A program made the translations under genes and the position numbers. Positions 41,869 through 47,753 of a DNA stretch of 64,000 nucleotides are shown in pieces. The notes under the pieces were generated by a model. It searched no databases and was not told where the DNA came from. It saw only the letters and a program-made list of their open reading frames with translations. The stretch spans positions 62,001 through 126,000 of the forward strand of contig CAKZYA010000002.1 of NCBI GenBank assembly GCA_937883755.1. The letters run 5' to 3'. Position 1 is the stretch's first letter, and the number at the start of each line of letters is the position of its first letter. This DNA is from an uncultured Flammeovirgaceae bacterium (GTDB lineage Bacteria; Bacteroidota; Bacteroidia; Cytophagales; Cyclobacteriaceae).

Positions 41869-43416
41869 TTACTCAGTATCACCAGTTTCTGTTGCCGCTA
41901 AGCTCAGGTTAGGTACGCCCGCCTCGTAGTATAATTCTGCCTCAGATTTCTCTCGTTGGGTTTGCAGCTTTAGCAACTTAATTCGGGCATCCAGCAATTC
42001 GGTTTCTCGGGTATTGATTAAGAATATAGAACTTTCGCCGAATTCGAACTTGCGAAGCTCACCATTTAAAAGTTGCTCATAATAATCAACCATTCGGGTT
42101 TGTTGATCAATGATCTCAGCTAAGTTTTCTAAGGTGTTGTAGGTAGTTAGTACCCCGTTAGCAATCAGTTGCCGCTGGTACGATTGCTCAAAGTACAATT
42201 GCTCCAGTTTTATGTTCGTCTGAGCCAGCTTTCCTCGCTCCTTCCGCAAGAAAAGCGGAAAGTAAAACTGTACTCCGGCCTTATAATCGTTGAAGAAAAA
42301 CGGCTGGTCACCACCGTTGCCGTTACCATTCCCATTGGATGGCCTTAGTTCTGATACAGTTTCACTTAAGAAATTGTACTTTAGATCAATCTGAGGCTTA
42401 AGAAACTCCAGCGCCAACCGTCGGTCAATTTCAGTTTGCTGGAATTTAGCCGTGATCTTTCGTAATTCGGGATGCGCTTCCATTGCTAACTCCTGCAAGG
42501 CAGATAGCAACTCAATATTTACTTCTTCACTTTCGTCCAGCACTGGCCAAGTATTTTCAGCTAGCTCTAATGGTAAAACATTCGTACCCTCTTCTTGAGT
42601 GCCCGCCCAAAGGAATACCGATACAGCCAATCGGGCATTTTCCAGATCAAGTCTTGCCTGTAATCGCTGGTTATCTCGCTCTTGATAATTGATAAATGCC
42701 TTGAGGGAATCAAATGGAGCAACATCACCGTTAATTACTTGCTGCACTACTCCATCGTATCGCTGAAGGGCAGCATTCTCTATCTCACTAATAATTTCGT
42801 ATTCCTGATATGCATAGTACCAGTTCCAGTAGGACTTAGCCGCATCGAATAAGAGCTTATTAATTTCCTTTACCTGATCAGCTTCGGCTAAGTCTTGCAT
42901 CAACCGGGCCTGGCGGATAGCCGCCCGACGCTGATCAATGAATAATCCCCGACCTACTGGTATAGAGAAACCAGCGTAAATCAAGCCGTCTTCGGTATTC
43001 TGTTGCTCAGGGTTTAAGAATCGTCCATCATTCTGCTCGTAACCTACCTCTAGATCAATAGGGAACCACATGGGTATTTTTAAACGACTATCCCAATTCT
43101 GATAGTAGCGAGTGCCTTTGTAATCTTTAATATCAAAAGCTGACTGTATAGTAGGGTCTAACATTCCTCGCGCCATCCGTAGATCCTGGAAAGCCATATC
43201 GTCAAACAGGTTAGCCCGCATCACAATTGGGTGATGAGTAAGGATATGAGAGAAAAACTCATCCAACGTAAATGTCTGGTCAACCACCTGCATTGAATCT
43301 TGCCTCAATTTTAACGAGTCAAGCTGGGCGTAGCTTGGAGTAGCTAGAAACCCAAATACTGCGCCCACCGAAACCAGCGCCAGGCGAAGGTGACGGAAGT
43401 ACTTTTGCTTGTTCAT
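41869..43416 (-). CDS. TolC-family outer membrane efflux protein
   Basis: A roughly 515-residue protein with a signal peptide (ending Pro-Ser-Tyr-Ala-Gln). Long helical OEP repeats contain AAKSYWNWYYAYQEYEI in the first and a corresponding segment in the second. The ATG at 43416 is preferred because it precedes the signal directly; 43440 is possible. It should form the trimeric outer-membrane channel of the tripartite exporter encoded upstream (HlyD at 43451, ABC at 44822). It is the last gene of that operon. Confidence 0.88.
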   Translation of the reverse strand: MNKQKYFRHLRLALVSVGAVFGFLATPSYAQLDSLKLRQDSMQVVDQTFTLDEFFSHILTHHPIVMRANLFDDMAFQDLRMARGMLDPTIQSAFDIKDYKGTRYYQNWDSRLKIPMWFPIDLEVGYEQNDGRFLNPEQQNTEDGLIYAGFSIPVGRGLFIDQRRAAIRQARLMQDLAEADQVKEINKLLFDAAKSYWNWYYAYQEYEIISEIENAALQRYDGVVQQVINGDVAPFDSLKAFINYQERDNQRLQARLDLENARLAVSVFLWAGTQEEGTNVLPLELAENTWPVLDESEEVNIELLSALQELAMEAHPELRKITAKFQQTEIDRRLALEFLKPQIDLKYNFLSETVSELRPSNGNGNGNGGDQPFFFNDYKAGVQFYFPLFLRKERGKLAQTNIKLEQLYFEQSYQRQLIANGVLTTYNTLENLAEIIDQQTRMVDYYEQLLNGELRKFEFGESSIFLINTRETELLDARIKLLKLQTQREKSEAELYYEAGVPNLSLAATETGDTE

Positions 43417-43450
43417 TATTTTCTCGGCAATAGGCAGCATGAAGACACTT

Positions 43451-44812
43451 CTATTTTGATGCAGTTTTTACGTCAGATGGCATTGCACCAGGCTCCTCCT
43501 CTAAGCTAGGGGGGAAGCCATTATACAGTCGCCATAGTTCGTACCACAGAGGCACATCGTTAAGCATAGCAAAGCCCTTCACTCCAGAACCCAGCCGCAA
43601 TTGCTCCGGCCAGTCGCCATCATTACCCGGATCAGGAGTTACTAAAATTCGGTACTTTCCTGCCTTGTTATCCGTTTCTACGTAATCAATTACCTGAACA
43701 ATACCGCCGAATGTTCCTACCGCTACATTAGGCCAACCTGAAAACTGTAAAGCCGGCCAACCGTCGAACTCCAGCCGAACGTGCCGACCAACTTCTAATA
43801 AAGGAACATCCATAGGTTTTACGTACAATTCTACGGCTTTATCAGGGTTACGTGGCATTACTGTTACAACTCCCTCCCCTTCTTTAATCGTCTCACCAAT
43901 TCCTGTCTTTAAAGCTTTAACAACAAAACCATCCTGAGGAGCAATGATGGAGTAACGATCCAGCCGTTCCTCTACGTTTGAATATTCATTTCGTTGTTTG
44001 ATCAGACTTCCTGCTGCTTCGGCTAGTTCAGCTCGAGTAAGGCTTAAATCTGACTCAGCTTTACTAATTTTCTCCAGATAATCAGCCTCAATAGAGTTTA
44101 GTTCAATCTGAGAGTTATATAGCTCGTTCTGCGTAGCGTAGAACTTATTCTCACTAGAGATTAGCTTTGCTTGAGCCTGCTGCGCTTTCTGCTCTTTCTG
44201 CTGTAATTCCGTCAGCGACTTTAACCCTTCATCGTACAGCACCTGCTGCCGCTCAAACTGATTATCAGCAATGTTGGCGTTTACTTTCTCTGCCAAGAAA
44301 TCAGTACTATCACTAATTACTTTCAATTCACTCTGCCGCACCTTATTTCTGGCCTGTTTAAGCTTTAATCGCAATGCATCGCGAAGTGCCGTAATTTGCC
44401 GCTCTAGAGCTTCAGCTTTCTGTTCTTTTGCTTGAATGCTAGCTTCTTTAGCCTCAATTTGCTCCTGCAACCGAGTAAGTAGCTGAGGGTCAAAAAACTT
44501 ATCTTTGACGTCTCGGATCGTTAGAATGGTATCGCCTTGTTGCACATACTCTCCTTCACTGACTAGCCAGTTGGTAATCTGCCCAGGTATAGCACTTTGG
44601 ATGGTTTGGGGGCGGTTCTCCGGCGATAAGGCAGTCACCTCACCTGTAGCATTAATATTCTGCTGCCAGGGTAAGAATAACACTAGGAATAAAAATATAC
44701 CGATACCACCCAGCCATTTGGCTAGCACCCGCCCCGCTCGGGGCGACTGAAGCACGTTCATGGACTCCAGTTGGGATAGGTGGTCGGGTTGAGGAAAAAT
44801 AGCTTTTCTCAT
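43451..44812 (-). CDS. HlyD-family periplasmic adaptor of the ABC exporter
   Basis: A roughly 453-residue adaptor with one N-terminal membrane segment (residues 36-52). An early lipoyl half-motif (PGQITNWLVSEGEYVQQGDTI), a long coiled coil rich in Gln, Glu and Lys, a second lipoyl half (IIAPQDGFV) and a beta-barrel domain follow. It bridges the inner-membrane ABC transporter and the TolC-like channel. The start is the ATG at 44812; the open frame extends to a TTG at 44821. It is ten bases from the ABC gene and 34 from the tolC-like gene. Confidence 0.9.
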   Translation of the reverse strand: MRKAIFPQPDHLSQLESMNVLQSPRAGRVLAKWLGGIGIFLFLVLFLPWQQNINATGEVTALSPENRPQTIQSAIPGQITNWLVSEGEYVQQGDTILTIRDVKDKFFDPQLLTRLQEQIEAKEASIQAKEQKAEALERQITALRDALRLKLKQARNKVRQSELKVISDSTDFLAEKVNANIADNQFERQQVLYDEGLKSLTELQQKEQKAQQAQAKLISSENKFYATQNELYNSQIELNSIEADYLEKISKAESDLSLTRAELAEAAGSLIKQRNEYSNVEERLDRYSIIAPQDGFVVKALKTGIGETIKEGEGVVTVMPRNPDKAVELYVKPMDVPLLEVGRHVRLEFDGWPALQFSGWPNVAVGTFGGIVQVIDYVETDNKAGKYRILVTPDPGNDGDWPEQLRLGSGVKGFAMLNDVPLWYELWRLYNGFPPSLEEEPGAMPSDVKTASK

Positions 44813-44821
44813 ATTGTTCAA

Positions 44822-47020
44822 TTAAGATGTAATTGGTCTAATATCGTAGTTAACGATTTCTTTGAAGTGGGGGTTCTTACTTACGTTATCATAAGAACCC
44901 TGAGCAATCACGGCGCCCTCCTTCAATACGACTACTCTCGTACAATTGGTTAGAATAATTGGGTCGGTAGACACCGTAATCAATGTCCAACTGTGTTTTT
45001 CGTCGGTTAAGTACCGGATTAAACGTTCCTTTATTGATTGTTCAAAGAAAAAGAAGAAATCGTTCAGGATGATAACTTTCGGTTTCTTGGCAATACAACG
45101 AGCTAGGGTAATCTTATGAGCCAATCCGGTAGAGAGGGTTTTTCCTCCACTCACCAACGGCGTATGCAGCCCTTCCGGTAGTTGATTAATTTCGTCGGTT
45201 GCACCTACTGCTTCAATCGCCTCAATGGCAGTTTGGTAAGTAGTGTTAGGTTTACCAACCAGAATATTCTCTAATACAGTACCATCAAAAATATCTTCCT
45301 GAGACACATTTTTAGCAACCCCATCTCTCAAGAAATTCACGTCAATGTCACTGAGCGAGATATTATTGTATGTCACCACTCCTTGATAAGACGAGTAAAT
45401 TCCGTCAATAATATTCACTAGCGTGGATTTACCACTGCCGGAGTGCCCAGTGATACAAATTTTCTCACCCGGCTCAAATGTCAAATTAATGTCTTTCAGG
45501 ACTTTCTTGCCGTAGCCCGGATAGTTATAGCTCAGATTCTTAATATCAACCTCAATCCCTTTATCAAAATACGTCTTAGGTAAGCGTATTCCCATCTGAT
45601 TCTCCAGTGGTAAATCCGTTACTTTACCTAGTTTATCTACCGCAGTAAGCACGTCGTAAACCGTATCTAGATTGATAATGATTTTTTCTACCGCCCCAAT
45701 CACTTGCACTATGATAAGTTCAGCTGCCACAAACTGCCCCAATGTAATCTGCCGATCAATTACCAGAATTGTACCTAGTACCAAAACACCTGCTGTAATC
45801 AGCACCTTAAACATCACGATAAAGGAGAACTGCCGGATTAGCACTCCGAAGTGAACTTTACGATGCAAGAGGTACTGATTGATATTGTAATCGGCCTTCT
45901 TCATGGGTAAACGGGTGGTTCCCGCTACCTTGAAAGAAGATAAGGCCCGGGCGAGTTCTTCCAGCCAAAACGCTACTTTATACTTATACTTTGATTCGAT
46001 GATGGACGAATCTAGTCCTTTACCTCCTGTGAAGTAGAAAATCAAGATCAATATACCGACCAGTAGAAGAGCAAAGAATACGAAGAACGGATGGTAGAAC
46101 GATAATAAAATGAGTCCAAAAAGAATTTGCAGCAATGCGGTTGATAAGTCAATCAATAACTTAGGTAGCCCTTTTTGTACTGTCAAAATATCAAAAAAGC
46201 GGTTGATCAGCTCAGGAGTATGATACTTGAATAGAGACTCAACATTGATCTTAGGAATGCGATAGGCAAACTCAAAAGCTGTTTTGGCAAACACCCTCCG
46301 TTGCAAGATCTCTACCATAGAGATCTGCATGATCTGTAAAACTCCCGATATTAAAATACCGACAATTACCAGTGCAATGAGTAGCACTACTGAGTTGAAC
46401 CACATTCCCCCAGAAATAAACCCCACGATAGCCTGGGTTCCTAATGGTAGCGAAAGGCTGATAATCCCTACGGCAATAGCATAGATGTAAATGTAAAATA
46501 TATCCTTCCGCTCGGGAGCCAATAACTGAATGAATCGCTGAAATGGGGTAAGATTCTTCTTTGCTTGCTCACTCTTACCCACTGTGCTGTGAAACGGAAA
46601 GGCGGTAACAAATACTACCTCACCGCTCTCATCTAGATAAAGATTGTTCGATAAACTGTTTAGTGAGACGGGTTCAAGGGAGCCATCGTCAGTTATTTTG
46701 GCAGCTTTATGCTCTAGCTTTTCATTAAGCTGTACAAAGACTGGCTCAAACTTGTCTGACCCATCGCTCTGAAACAGCAAAATTGGAAAGTCTGCATCCT
46801 TTACAAACTCCTGAAATTTGTCTTGAGCAATACTATTGGAGATGAATACCAGTTGCATTCGCTCACCTGATTCCGAAAGATCGCCAATAAAATCATCAAT
46901 TGACGTAGGGCAAACCGGACAAACATTAGCTACTATCTCTTCCAGTTCAGGAAGAGAGTGCTCATGCTTAAGCGCATCTGAGAAATTGTGAAGCAGAGAG
47001 GTGATCTGTCGGGTATCCAT
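44822..47020 (-). CDS. Type I secretion-like ABC exporter with degenerate ATPase sites
   Basis: A 732-residue half-transporter. Residues 1-155 form an N-terminal region that may be a degenerate peptidase-like (C39/CLD) domain without catalytic residues. Residues about 165-455 hold an ABC_membrane six-helix unit, and the NBD runs from about 490 to the end. Walker A is intact (GHSGSGKS, 525-532). The signature LSGGQ is LSTGL (629-633). The Walker B Asp is Asn653 and the catalytic Glu is Asp654, followed by five Phe. The switch His is replaced in VSTD (683-686). ATP may be bound, but hydrolysis should be very poor. It heads the exporter operon with HlyD and TolC. Confidence 0.88.
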   Translation of the reverse strand: MDTRQITSLLHNFSDALKHEHSLPELEEIVANVCPVCPTSIDDFIGDLSESGERMQLVFISNSIAQDKFQEFVKDADFPILLFQSDGSDKFEPVFVQLNEKLEHKAAKITDDGSLEPVSLNSLSNNLYLDESGEVVFVTAFPFHSTVGKSEQAKKNLTPFQRFIQLLAPERKDIFYIYIYAIAVGIISLSLPLGTQAIVGFISGGMWFNSVVLLIALVIVGILISGVLQIMQISMVEILQRRVFAKTAFEFAYRIPKINVESLFKYHTPELINRFFDILTVQKGLPKLLIDLSTALLQILFGLILLSFYHPFFVFFALLLVGILILIFYFTGGKGLDSSIIESKYKYKVAFWLEELARALSSFKVAGTTRLPMKKADYNINQYLLHRKVHFGVLIRQFSFIVMFKVLITAGVLVLGTILVIDRQITLGQFVAAELIIVQVIGAVEKIIINLDTVYDVLTAVDKLGKVTDLPLENQMGIRLPKTYFDKGIEVDIKNLSYNYPGYGKKVLKDINLTFEPGEKICITGHSGSGKSTLVNIIDGIYSSYQGVVTYNNISLSDIDVNFLRDGVAKNVSQEDIFDGTVLENILVGKPNTTYQTAIEAIEAVGATDEINQLPEGLHTPLVSGGKTLSTGLAHKITLARCIAKKPKVIILNDFFFFFEQSIKERLIRYLTDEKHSWTLITVSTDPIILTNCTRVVVLKEGAVIAQGSYDNVSKNPHFKEIVNYDIRPITS

Positions 47021-47182: not shown

Positions 47183-47611
47183 TTACGCGATTTTTACTAG
47201 CTCAATATCAAAAGTAAGATCCTTACCAGCTAATGGATGATTAGCATCTAGTACTACCAAATCACCTTTTATTTCAGTAATAGTTACTGGCACTTGTTGC
47301 CCTTGAGTATTAACGGCTAGCTGCTGACCCACTTCAGGAGTAATGTTATCTGGAAACTCGCTCTTCGACACTTCCATGATCATTTCTTTCTTTACTTCCC
47401 CGTACGCTTCTTGACTAGAAATATTCACTTGCTTGCTCTCTCCTACCACCATTCCGTTTACAGCTTTTTCAAAACCAGCAATCATCTGCCCCTGTCCTAA
47501 GGTAAATTCTAGAGGCTGGTTACGCTTGCGGGAAGAATCAAATTCAGAGCCATCAGTAAGGGTGCCAGTGTAATGTACGTGTACAGTGTCGCCTGCTTTT
47601 GCTTTAGACAT
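47183..47611 (-). CDS. FKBP-type peptidyl-prolyl isomerase (SlyD-like)
   Basis: A roughly 142-residue protein. AGDTVHVHYTGTLTDGSEFDSS starts the FKBP barrel, and an inserted-in-flap domain follows the QMIAGFEKAVNGM segment, the layout of SlyD-type enzymes. It isomerises Xaa-Pro bonds and acts as a chaperone in the cytoplasm; it lacks the His-rich metal tail of E. coli SlyD. The start at 47611 (ATG before Ser-Lys-Ala-Lys) is chosen because the longer frame to 47692 adds an unrelated segment with Cys residues. Confidence 0.92.
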   Translation of the reverse strand: MSKAKAGDTVHVHYTGTLTDGSEFDSSRKRNQPLEFTLGQGQMIAGFEKAVNGMVVGESKQVNISSQEAYGEVKKEMIMEVSKSEFPDNITPEVGQQLAVNTQGQQVPVTITEIKGDLVVLDANHPLAGKDLTFDIELVKIA

Positions 47612-47753
47612 AATAGTTATTATTTGTTTTAAAAAGTATGTACAGTTCGTCGCTAGGTAAAGTAGTTCGACCGGGCAATAATTCCCGCTCACCGAATAAG
47701 TGGGGCTTTTATACGATAGATACTATATCTTCACTGAAAAATAACAGCAGCGC

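Follow-up and report, generated by a model that had tools for sequence, protein, structure and literature searches.

How can an ABC-type exporter work when its nucleotide-binding domain (NBD) has lost the residues for ATP hydrolysis? This question is raised by a gene at positions 44822..47020, on the minus strand of the window, by which we mean the whole stretch of 64,000 nucleotides that was analysed. For the inner-membrane component of tripartite exporters, the classes named in the available part of PMC8277102 are ABC, RND and MFS.

The exporter gene and its operon

The gene encodes an ABC-exporter-like protein of 732 aa, which was recognised by its open reading frame, Pfam, alignment, a structural model and Foldseek; the plus-strand translation of 44822-47020 is full of stops. 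Its N-terminal domain (residues 1-150, 46571..47020, minus strand) is of mixed alpha/beta structure in the AlphaFold2 model and was also covered by Foldseek. It is followed by a type IV transmembrane domain (TMD, residues 155-475, 45596..46558, minus strand), which is conserved across all groups described below, and by an NBD (residues 489-722, 44855..45556, minus strand) that alignment and motif census showed to be degenerate. Within the NBD, all on the minus strand, the Walker A motif GHSGSGKST (residues 525-533, 45422..45448) is intact, LSTGL (residues 629-633, 45122..45136) stands at the signature position, Asn653-Asp654 (45059..45064) replace the Walker B Asp and the catalytic Glu and are followed by five Phe, and Thr685 (44966..44968) is found where the H-loop His is expected. 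The intact Walker A, the altered signature, Asn653-Asp654 with the five Phe and the loss of the H-loop His had been reported in the first-pass annotation, and the reading frame and the alignment bear them out. Among the features of an ABC exporter NBD (Walker A, Walker B Asp, Glu, signature and His), Walker A alone is present.

The DNA at the Phe run reads TTCTTCTTTTTCTTT. The run is found again in the relatives L011 (NDFFFFFE) and L012 (NDFFYYFE) and, over the part of the run displayed, in L034 from the window's genus (NDFFFF). It is therefore no assembly slip, and a misassembled Walker B region, which the first-pass annotation had named as a possible fault, is ruled out.

A HlyD-type periplasmic adaptor (43451..44821, minus strand, Pfam HlyD_3; the frame is taken from the first possible start, TTG, and the true start may differ) and a TolC-type outer membrane factor (41869..43440, minus strand, Pfam OEP 1.3e-38) are encoded downstream on the exporter's strand. 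Both frames are open, in agreement with the earlier statement that the adaptor and channel genes are intact. Directly upstream of the exporter lies a gene for an FKBP-type peptidyl-prolyl isomerase (47183-47692, minus strand). A profile of canonical NBDs had a single match in the window at E<=1, the exporter gene itself; a further ABC gene was thus not detected in the 64 kb, in line with the earlier claim for the vicinity of the gene. PADLOC gave matches to the P-loop region alone.

The window protein scored 27.7 bits with PF00664, the ABC exporter transmembrane fold, just below the cut-off of 28, and members without an NBD scored 32.7 (L133), 43.2 (L137) and 28.1 (L242). Both kinds of protein have the ABC exporter transmembrane fold. 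The AlphaFold2 monomer, built with 15 sequences, is a type IV exporter (mean pLDDT 76.8, pTM 0.61). In Foldseek the model matched PCAT1 first; HlyB of the HlyB/D complex (8dck) was matched with a TMq of 0.71 over 731 columns, and TM287/288 was also found. The alignments to PCAT1 and HlyB span the full length and include the N-terminal domain. A profile of 17 such N-terminal domains had one sequence match in the PDB with an E value of 0.71, and a C39-like nature is unsupported by sequence. The domain is missing from shorter relatives (about 545-600 aa) and from most NBD-less members.

The degenerate NBD is shared by a whole branch

Twenty-three loci were obtained by scanning GTDB contigs; 19 of them, listed without a class code, belong to the exporter family. 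Catalytic Glu, His and LSxG[QE] signature were absent from all 19 of these first family loci. At E<=1e-60 a match was present in 124 of 148 genomes of the taxonomic family to which the window belongs. With the TMD profile A2, matches were obtained in 97 of 395 genomes sampled from the phylum and, at E<=1e-50, in 111/121, 101/120 and 66/151 genomes of three further families.

For the motif census the NBD-bearing sequences were grouped. Group D, the degenerate branch, holds 188 rows, including the window and the contig-cut L214; its members are mostly from the window's class, with L103, L104, L106, L110 and L131 from genomes coded as other classes. Group C (L140-L152, L162-L165 and L172; 17 rows in the census, the partial L164 being left out) consists of proteins whose genomes all carry the codes of other classes in the phylum. 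The label C was given after the motifs had been seen, and the TMD trees separate the group by one branch with a support of 100. In a quick IQ-TREE tree of 18 NBD-less (group T), 52 D and 10 C sequences, T was one clade with a support of 100 and C formed one side of a branch.

The strict Walker A motif was kept in 148 of the 188 D rows, the Walker B Asp in 40, the catalytic Glu in 15 and the His in one; no row had the LSxG[QE] signature, and none combined Glu with His. In group C, Walker A and the Walker B Asp were present in 17 of 17 rows, the Glu in 16, the His in 13 and LSxG[QE] in 5, and all four of Walker A, Asp, Glu and His were retained by 13 of the 17 rows. The same motifs were read in ten ordinary exporters, L030 and nine encoded in the window's genome: Walker A, signature, Asp and His were present in all ten and the Glu in nine. 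The first-pass annotation would have been refuted if this copy alone were degenerate; on the protein's own branch the opposite was found. C-type rows with Walker B, Glu and His are often odd in the signature, as if the signature were lost first.

Of the 40 D rows without a strict Walker A, 30 still have the P-loop Lys. Together with the 148 intact motifs, this suggests that the nucleotide still matters in most D rows. Across all NBD-bearing rows of the tree, the P-loop Lys was gone in 10 of 203, through 9 changes on the tree, and was replaced by Arg in 4 of the 10. In a separate tally an acid was found at position 654 in 156 of 186 D rows. The Q-loop Gln was out of register in the NBD alignment.

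More than one copy of the system can occur in a genome. In G071, which belongs to the window's genus, two copies (L083 and L084) are 90% and 56% identical to the window protein. Genome G596 has two NBD-less copies and one with a degenerate NBD (L251, L252 and L253), each with HlyD and OEP frames. A protein of Aureibacter tunicatorum (L346:3968-5620, WP_309940528.1) is called 'ABC transporter ATP-binding protein', and its P-loop is gone.

One clade has no NBD

The T proteins stop directly after TM6 and have no NBD. By a frame length of 334-424 aa, 86 NBD-less matches were counted in three families (37, 25 and 24). This count leaves out short matches in G805, G904, G909 and G655, which look cut or partial, the contig-end cuts L285 and L214, and L188, which was kept in the TMD tree. 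Many of the frames are 334-360 aa long and have space for a six-TM core only. HlyD and OEP frames were found downstream in all 48 T loci that were read. In the TMD tree these 48 rows are one clade nested in D with a support of 100. Since the T rows are one clade in two trees, there is no sign that Bacteroidota lost the entire NBD more than once; as far as sampled, the NBD-less state arose a single time. L188 (genome G610) has a 503 aa frame with an N-terminal domain and a TMD that ends soon after the TMD; it may be a frameshift, an assembly fault or a separate NBD loss.

A displaced NBD gene was sought in ten T genomes with a profile of the family NBDs. The best matches, in frames of 590-736 aa, reached 188-199 bits. 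For comparison, the ordinary exporters of the window's genome reached 198 bits, and family NBDs from 260 (G277) to 310 bits (window). Of the four genomes used as yardsticks, G277 alone is outside the profile, which contains sequences of G000, G059 and G190. No displaced family-like NBD gene was thus found in the ten genomes with this profile. At the T locus L133 a 286 aa ABC-domain frame lies 1.3 kb past the OEP gene; within the stretch covered, the other 47 T loci read had no ABC-domain frame nearby. Ordinary NBD-bearing exporters are encoded in every genome searched with the profile (14/14). It is unlikely that a generic ATPase acts in trans on the T proteins.

Plasmid proteins of Sphingomonadales form a second branch

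Nine plasmid proteins of Sphingomonadales (group S) lack the P-loop in 9 of 9 cases. In the eight rows unbroken by an IS element neither the Walker B Asp nor the His is found, and a Glu at position 654 occurs in one (L348). Adaptor and TolC genes come next in six of seven annotated S records; two further records are without annotation there. The seventh annotated record, L343 on a plasmid of Sphingopyxis sp. 113P3, is broken by an IS element, its exporter gene running into an IS3-family transposase; it was included in the nine S rows and in the tree and left out of the identity comparison, in which NBD identity was below TMD identity in 28 of 28 pairs. In a quick tree built from 75 rows, S formed one clade whose place is among the C rows and away from D; the tool flagged eight S rows for unlike letter make-up. 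This position favours an NBD loss in S separate from that in D but does not compel it, as the starred branches still allow C to be one group. Some of the Sphingomonadales plasmid proteins are also annotated 'ABC transporter ATP-binding protein' despite the missing P-loop.

The transmembrane domain is more conserved than the NBD

A canonical exporter of the window's genome served as the control. Among 30 orthologues from the window's family its mean identity was 0.681 in the NBD and 0.475 in the TMD, and the NBD was higher in 430 of 435 pairs. With 60 D sequences of the same family the mean identity was 0.368 in the NBD and 0.567 in the TMD, and the NBD was higher in none of 1770 pairs. The conservation of the two domains in D is inverted relative to this one canonical exporter of the same genome family. 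In the 17 C rows the NBD was higher than the TMD in 45 of 136 pairs.

Selection was measured with Nei-Gojobori pairs, which are not independent, at a dS of 0.02-1.3 for the TMD and 0.02-1.5 for the NBD. In D the median omega was 0.089 for the NBD (range 0.015-0.685) and 0.044 for the TMD in the same 39 pairs. The degenerate NBD is under purifying selection, and this selection check had been proposed in the first-pass annotation. The doubt voiced there about simple decay is upheld, and decay of this one copy is excluded, as relatives share the degenerate state and the NBD is under purifying selection. For the window's own pairs the dS was high or saturated; against L034 the NBD had a dN of 0.063 and a dS of 1.68, and the dS of the TMD was not computable. 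The median omega of the T TMD was 0.149 (23 pairs), above that of D, which could reflect relaxed function.

The TMD alignment of 25 sequences has 321 columns and one single-residue gap. In nine of ten TMD segments the column entropy of T relative to D was 0.58 to 0.91. Intracellular loop 2 (353-385), with a ratio of 1.08, was the sole segment of the ten that is more variable in T than in D. Five columns are near-invariant in D and free in T: 355, 358 and 363 in loop 2, and 249 and 448 elsewhere. In type IV exporters intracellular loop 2 docks on the opposite NBD. Since this loop is freed in T, it is most likely that D still keeps its pseudo-NBD docked through loop 2 and that T has been released from docking. 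All groups retain coupling loop 1 (PELxNRFFD).

Groups C, D and T share three conserved charged positions that lie in hydrophobic stretches, Lys/Arg405, Glu434 and Glu445, compared with a single conserved position of this kind in the control exporter. Glu434 (45719..45721, minus strand) lies in TM6. An acid is found there in 16 of 17 C rows, in 187 of 187 D rows (184 Glu, 3 Asp), in 48 of 48 T rows and in 9 of 9 Sphingomonadales proteins. Glu445 is not kept in the S rows and Lys405 was absent from the two S rows inspected, so that Glu434 alone of these residues is common to S. Within strongly hydrophobic stretches the window protein carries 7 charges, and nine ordinary exporters carry between 1 and 7; the number is therefore not unusual, and it is the conservation that stands out. 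A gain of the buried acids along with the loss of the ATPase was ruled out because they are already present in relatives with a canonical NBD. For the same reason they are no proof of proton coupling.

The adaptor and channel genes accompany the exporter

In 97 longer neighbourhoods, in which genes were grouped by single-linkage clustering, the exporter was found in 96, HlyD in 94 and OEP in 91; L011 and L085 lie on the same contig, so that the 97 hold at least one double. A HlyD-type adaptor and a TolC-type channel are encoded with the exporter. In L141 and L164, which are C-type and from one family, no HlyD or OEP was found within the stretch covered. No second exporter gene recurred in the 97 neighbourhoods. 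Extra ABC-domain frames occurred in six loci, with 241-286 aa in L088, L133 and L154 and with about 1000 aa in L147, L148 and L151, the latter being UvrA-like by their look.

No recurring cargo gene was found among the neighbourhood clusters inspected. A TetR-type gene stands beside about 41 of the 97 loci (for example L013:6270-6983, L021:6244-6981 and L024:889-1632); of the 37 that were placed, 34 lie upstream and share the operon's strand, and the one at the NBD-less L133 is divergent. Three of these genes were confirmed by Pfam, and the L018 member is an antisense frame and possibly spurious. A TetR-type regulator beside the operon is usual for efflux pumps. Its presence points to small molecules, inducibly exported, as the candidate cargo. 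FKBP-type genes like the one upstream in the window were found at 10 of the 97 loci, mostly in the nearest relatives; the window has this gene in place of the TetR-type gene.

Discussion

The sequences show that the TMD and the genes for its adaptor and channel are retained even where the NBD is without its catalytic residues, without a P-loop or missing altogether. Our preferred reading, to which we give a probability of roughly 0.58, is that the protein is the inner-membrane part of a tripartite exporter whose ABC-type TMD no longer depends on ATP hydrolysis. We are fairly confident of the narrower point that transport needs no ATP hydrolysis, and only tentative in proposing that a gradient of protons or of other ions powers it. 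The TMD would work as a homodimer that opens in turn to the cytoplasm and to the HlyD-TolC conduit, with an ion gradient, most likely of protons, or the gradient of the substrate as its drive. Glu434 with its charged neighbours in TM5/TM6 is the candidate coupling site. In the form found in the window the NBD would still dock through intracellular loop 2 and probably still binds a nucleotide by its Walker A motif; the pseudo-NBD may serve to clamp or gate the transporter rather than to power it.

Several other explanations were weighed. CFTR is opened by ATP binding, and the protein might likewise be a conduit or facilitator in which ATP binding without hydrolysis opens a passive path, the T proteins being gated by the substrate or the adaptor alone. 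Walker A in 148 of 188 rows despite the lost hydrolysis residues, the purifying selection on the NBD and the stronger constraint on the docking loop where an NBD is present are all in line with such a gate. The loss of the P-loop Lys in 10 of 203 rows by 9 changes, and the T clade, which retains the operon and so argues that ATP is not needed in general, speak against it; an ungated path across both membranes would also be costly. We regard it as unlikely. A real but slow ATPase, with the acid at 654 acting as a weak base for slow ATP-driven export, would fit the acid in 156 of 186 D rows and the intact Walker A of the window, but signature and His are both lost, the Q-loop Gln is out of register, P-loop-less and NBD-less relatives exist and the NBD is conserved far less than the TMD, all of which makes it improbable.

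Equally improbable is a heterodimer in which a canonical half-transporter from elsewhere supplies one working ATP site, although ordinary exporters are encoded in 14 of 14 genomes searched and pairs with one degenerate site are common among ABC exporters according to the available text of PMC7756269. The composite site would need its signature from the family NBD, where LSxG[QE] occurs in 0 of 188 rows, and NBD-less members are unable to form such a site at all. These members sit in the same operon, a second exporter gene does not recur in the 97 neighbourhoods and two matches of the own family are listed in just 4 of 124 family genomes, so that the pairing with another half-transporter offered in the first-pass annotation is disfavoured. 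That the protein is no longer a transporter, its TMD serving the HlyD/TolC conduit as a membrane anchor or a platform for assembly, or acting as a sensor, would agree with the TMD and the operon being all that is common to the groups; this is slightly more improbable still, given the conservation along the whole TMD (one single-residue gap in 321 columns of 25 sequences) and the TetR-type neighbour of about 41 of the 97 loci. For gene decay in one lineage or a sequencing error there is nothing beyond the odd residues themselves, and with the gene in 124 of 148 family genomes, 59 aligned relatives of that family in the motif census and an omega well below 1 in most pairs its probability is close to nil.

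The nearest precedent for the preferred reading, an ABC-type TMD freed from ATP hydrolysis, is SbmA, an importer. In the accessible sections of PMC13316013, SbmA/BacA and the SbmA-like peptide transporters (SLiPT) have the ABC exporter TMD fold without an NBD and are proton-driven; they are proposed to derive from the NBD-bearing ABC transporter YddA, in which part of the SbmA glutamate ladder is reported. An ABC exporter TMD without an NBD is shared by the T clade (48/48 read), the window protein keeping a degenerate NBD, and here too the buried charges predate the loss of the ATPase, as does the part of the ladder in YddA (PMC13316013, same sections). The SLiPT, by contrast, are described there as peptide importers with an added TM0 domain (TM0a/TM0b) and lost coupling helices, and HlyD is not named in that paper. 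Our proteins have the TMD core only, with T frames of 334-360 aa, keep coupling loop 1 (PELxNRFFD) and are encoded with HlyD and TolC genes; neither TM0a/TM0b nor the loss of the coupling helices is found. In the PDB, at E<=0.001, the TMD profile A2 matched ComA (1.9e-11), PCAT1 (2e-7), ABCB10 and PrtD (5l22). None of the 13 sequences matched by this profile carries the name SbmA in the searched copy, which may not hold SbmA chains; no sequence relationship to SbmA emerged from this search.

With type I secretion (HlyB, LssB, PrtD) the system has the gene trio and the domain order in common. The best NCBIfam match is TIGR03375, LssB, with 200 bits, far under the curated cut-off of 693, and the lost NBD motifs and the NBD-less forms set the family apart. 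PCAT1 and ComA have the nearest solved TMDs by sequence and are among the best folds, but both are ATPases with working NBDs. Their hosts are Gram-positive and are not known to have an adaptor and outer channel. TmrAB, CFTR, TAP and others have a degenerate catalytic Glu and signature at one site, as stated in the parts of PMC7756269 and PMC8277102 at hand. They keep one working composite site, whereas a homodimer of the window protein would have none; nor does a gene for a canonical partner half-transporter, as in heterodimeric ABC exporters, recur beside the family exporter in the 97 neighbourhoods.

No description of such an exporter was found in open-licence PMC papers, a scope that leaves most subscription journals and preprints outside. 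The suggestion of the first-pass annotation that this is an undescribed kind of tripartite exporter remains the best reading of our results. The family may even represent a further energy class beside ABC, RND and MFS, an ABC-fold secondary exporter with HlyD and TolC. An ATP-driven ancestor would have given rise to it once within Bacteroidota and probably again in Sphingomonadales, with the canonical, pseudo-NBD and no-NBD stages all extant. For this wider proposal we put the odds somewhat below even.

The name 'ABC transporter ATP-binding protein' can mislead, as it does for the genes of Aureibacter tunicatorum and of the Sphingomonadales plasmids. To our knowledge there is one well studied case of a change from a primary to a secondary transporter, SbmA, and it was deduced from end states. 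In the exporter family the successive steps of such a change would be found next to each other within a single conserved operon, which occurs in several hundred searched genomes. Since the stages coexist in one operon, a change of the energy source may be tested on natural proteins.
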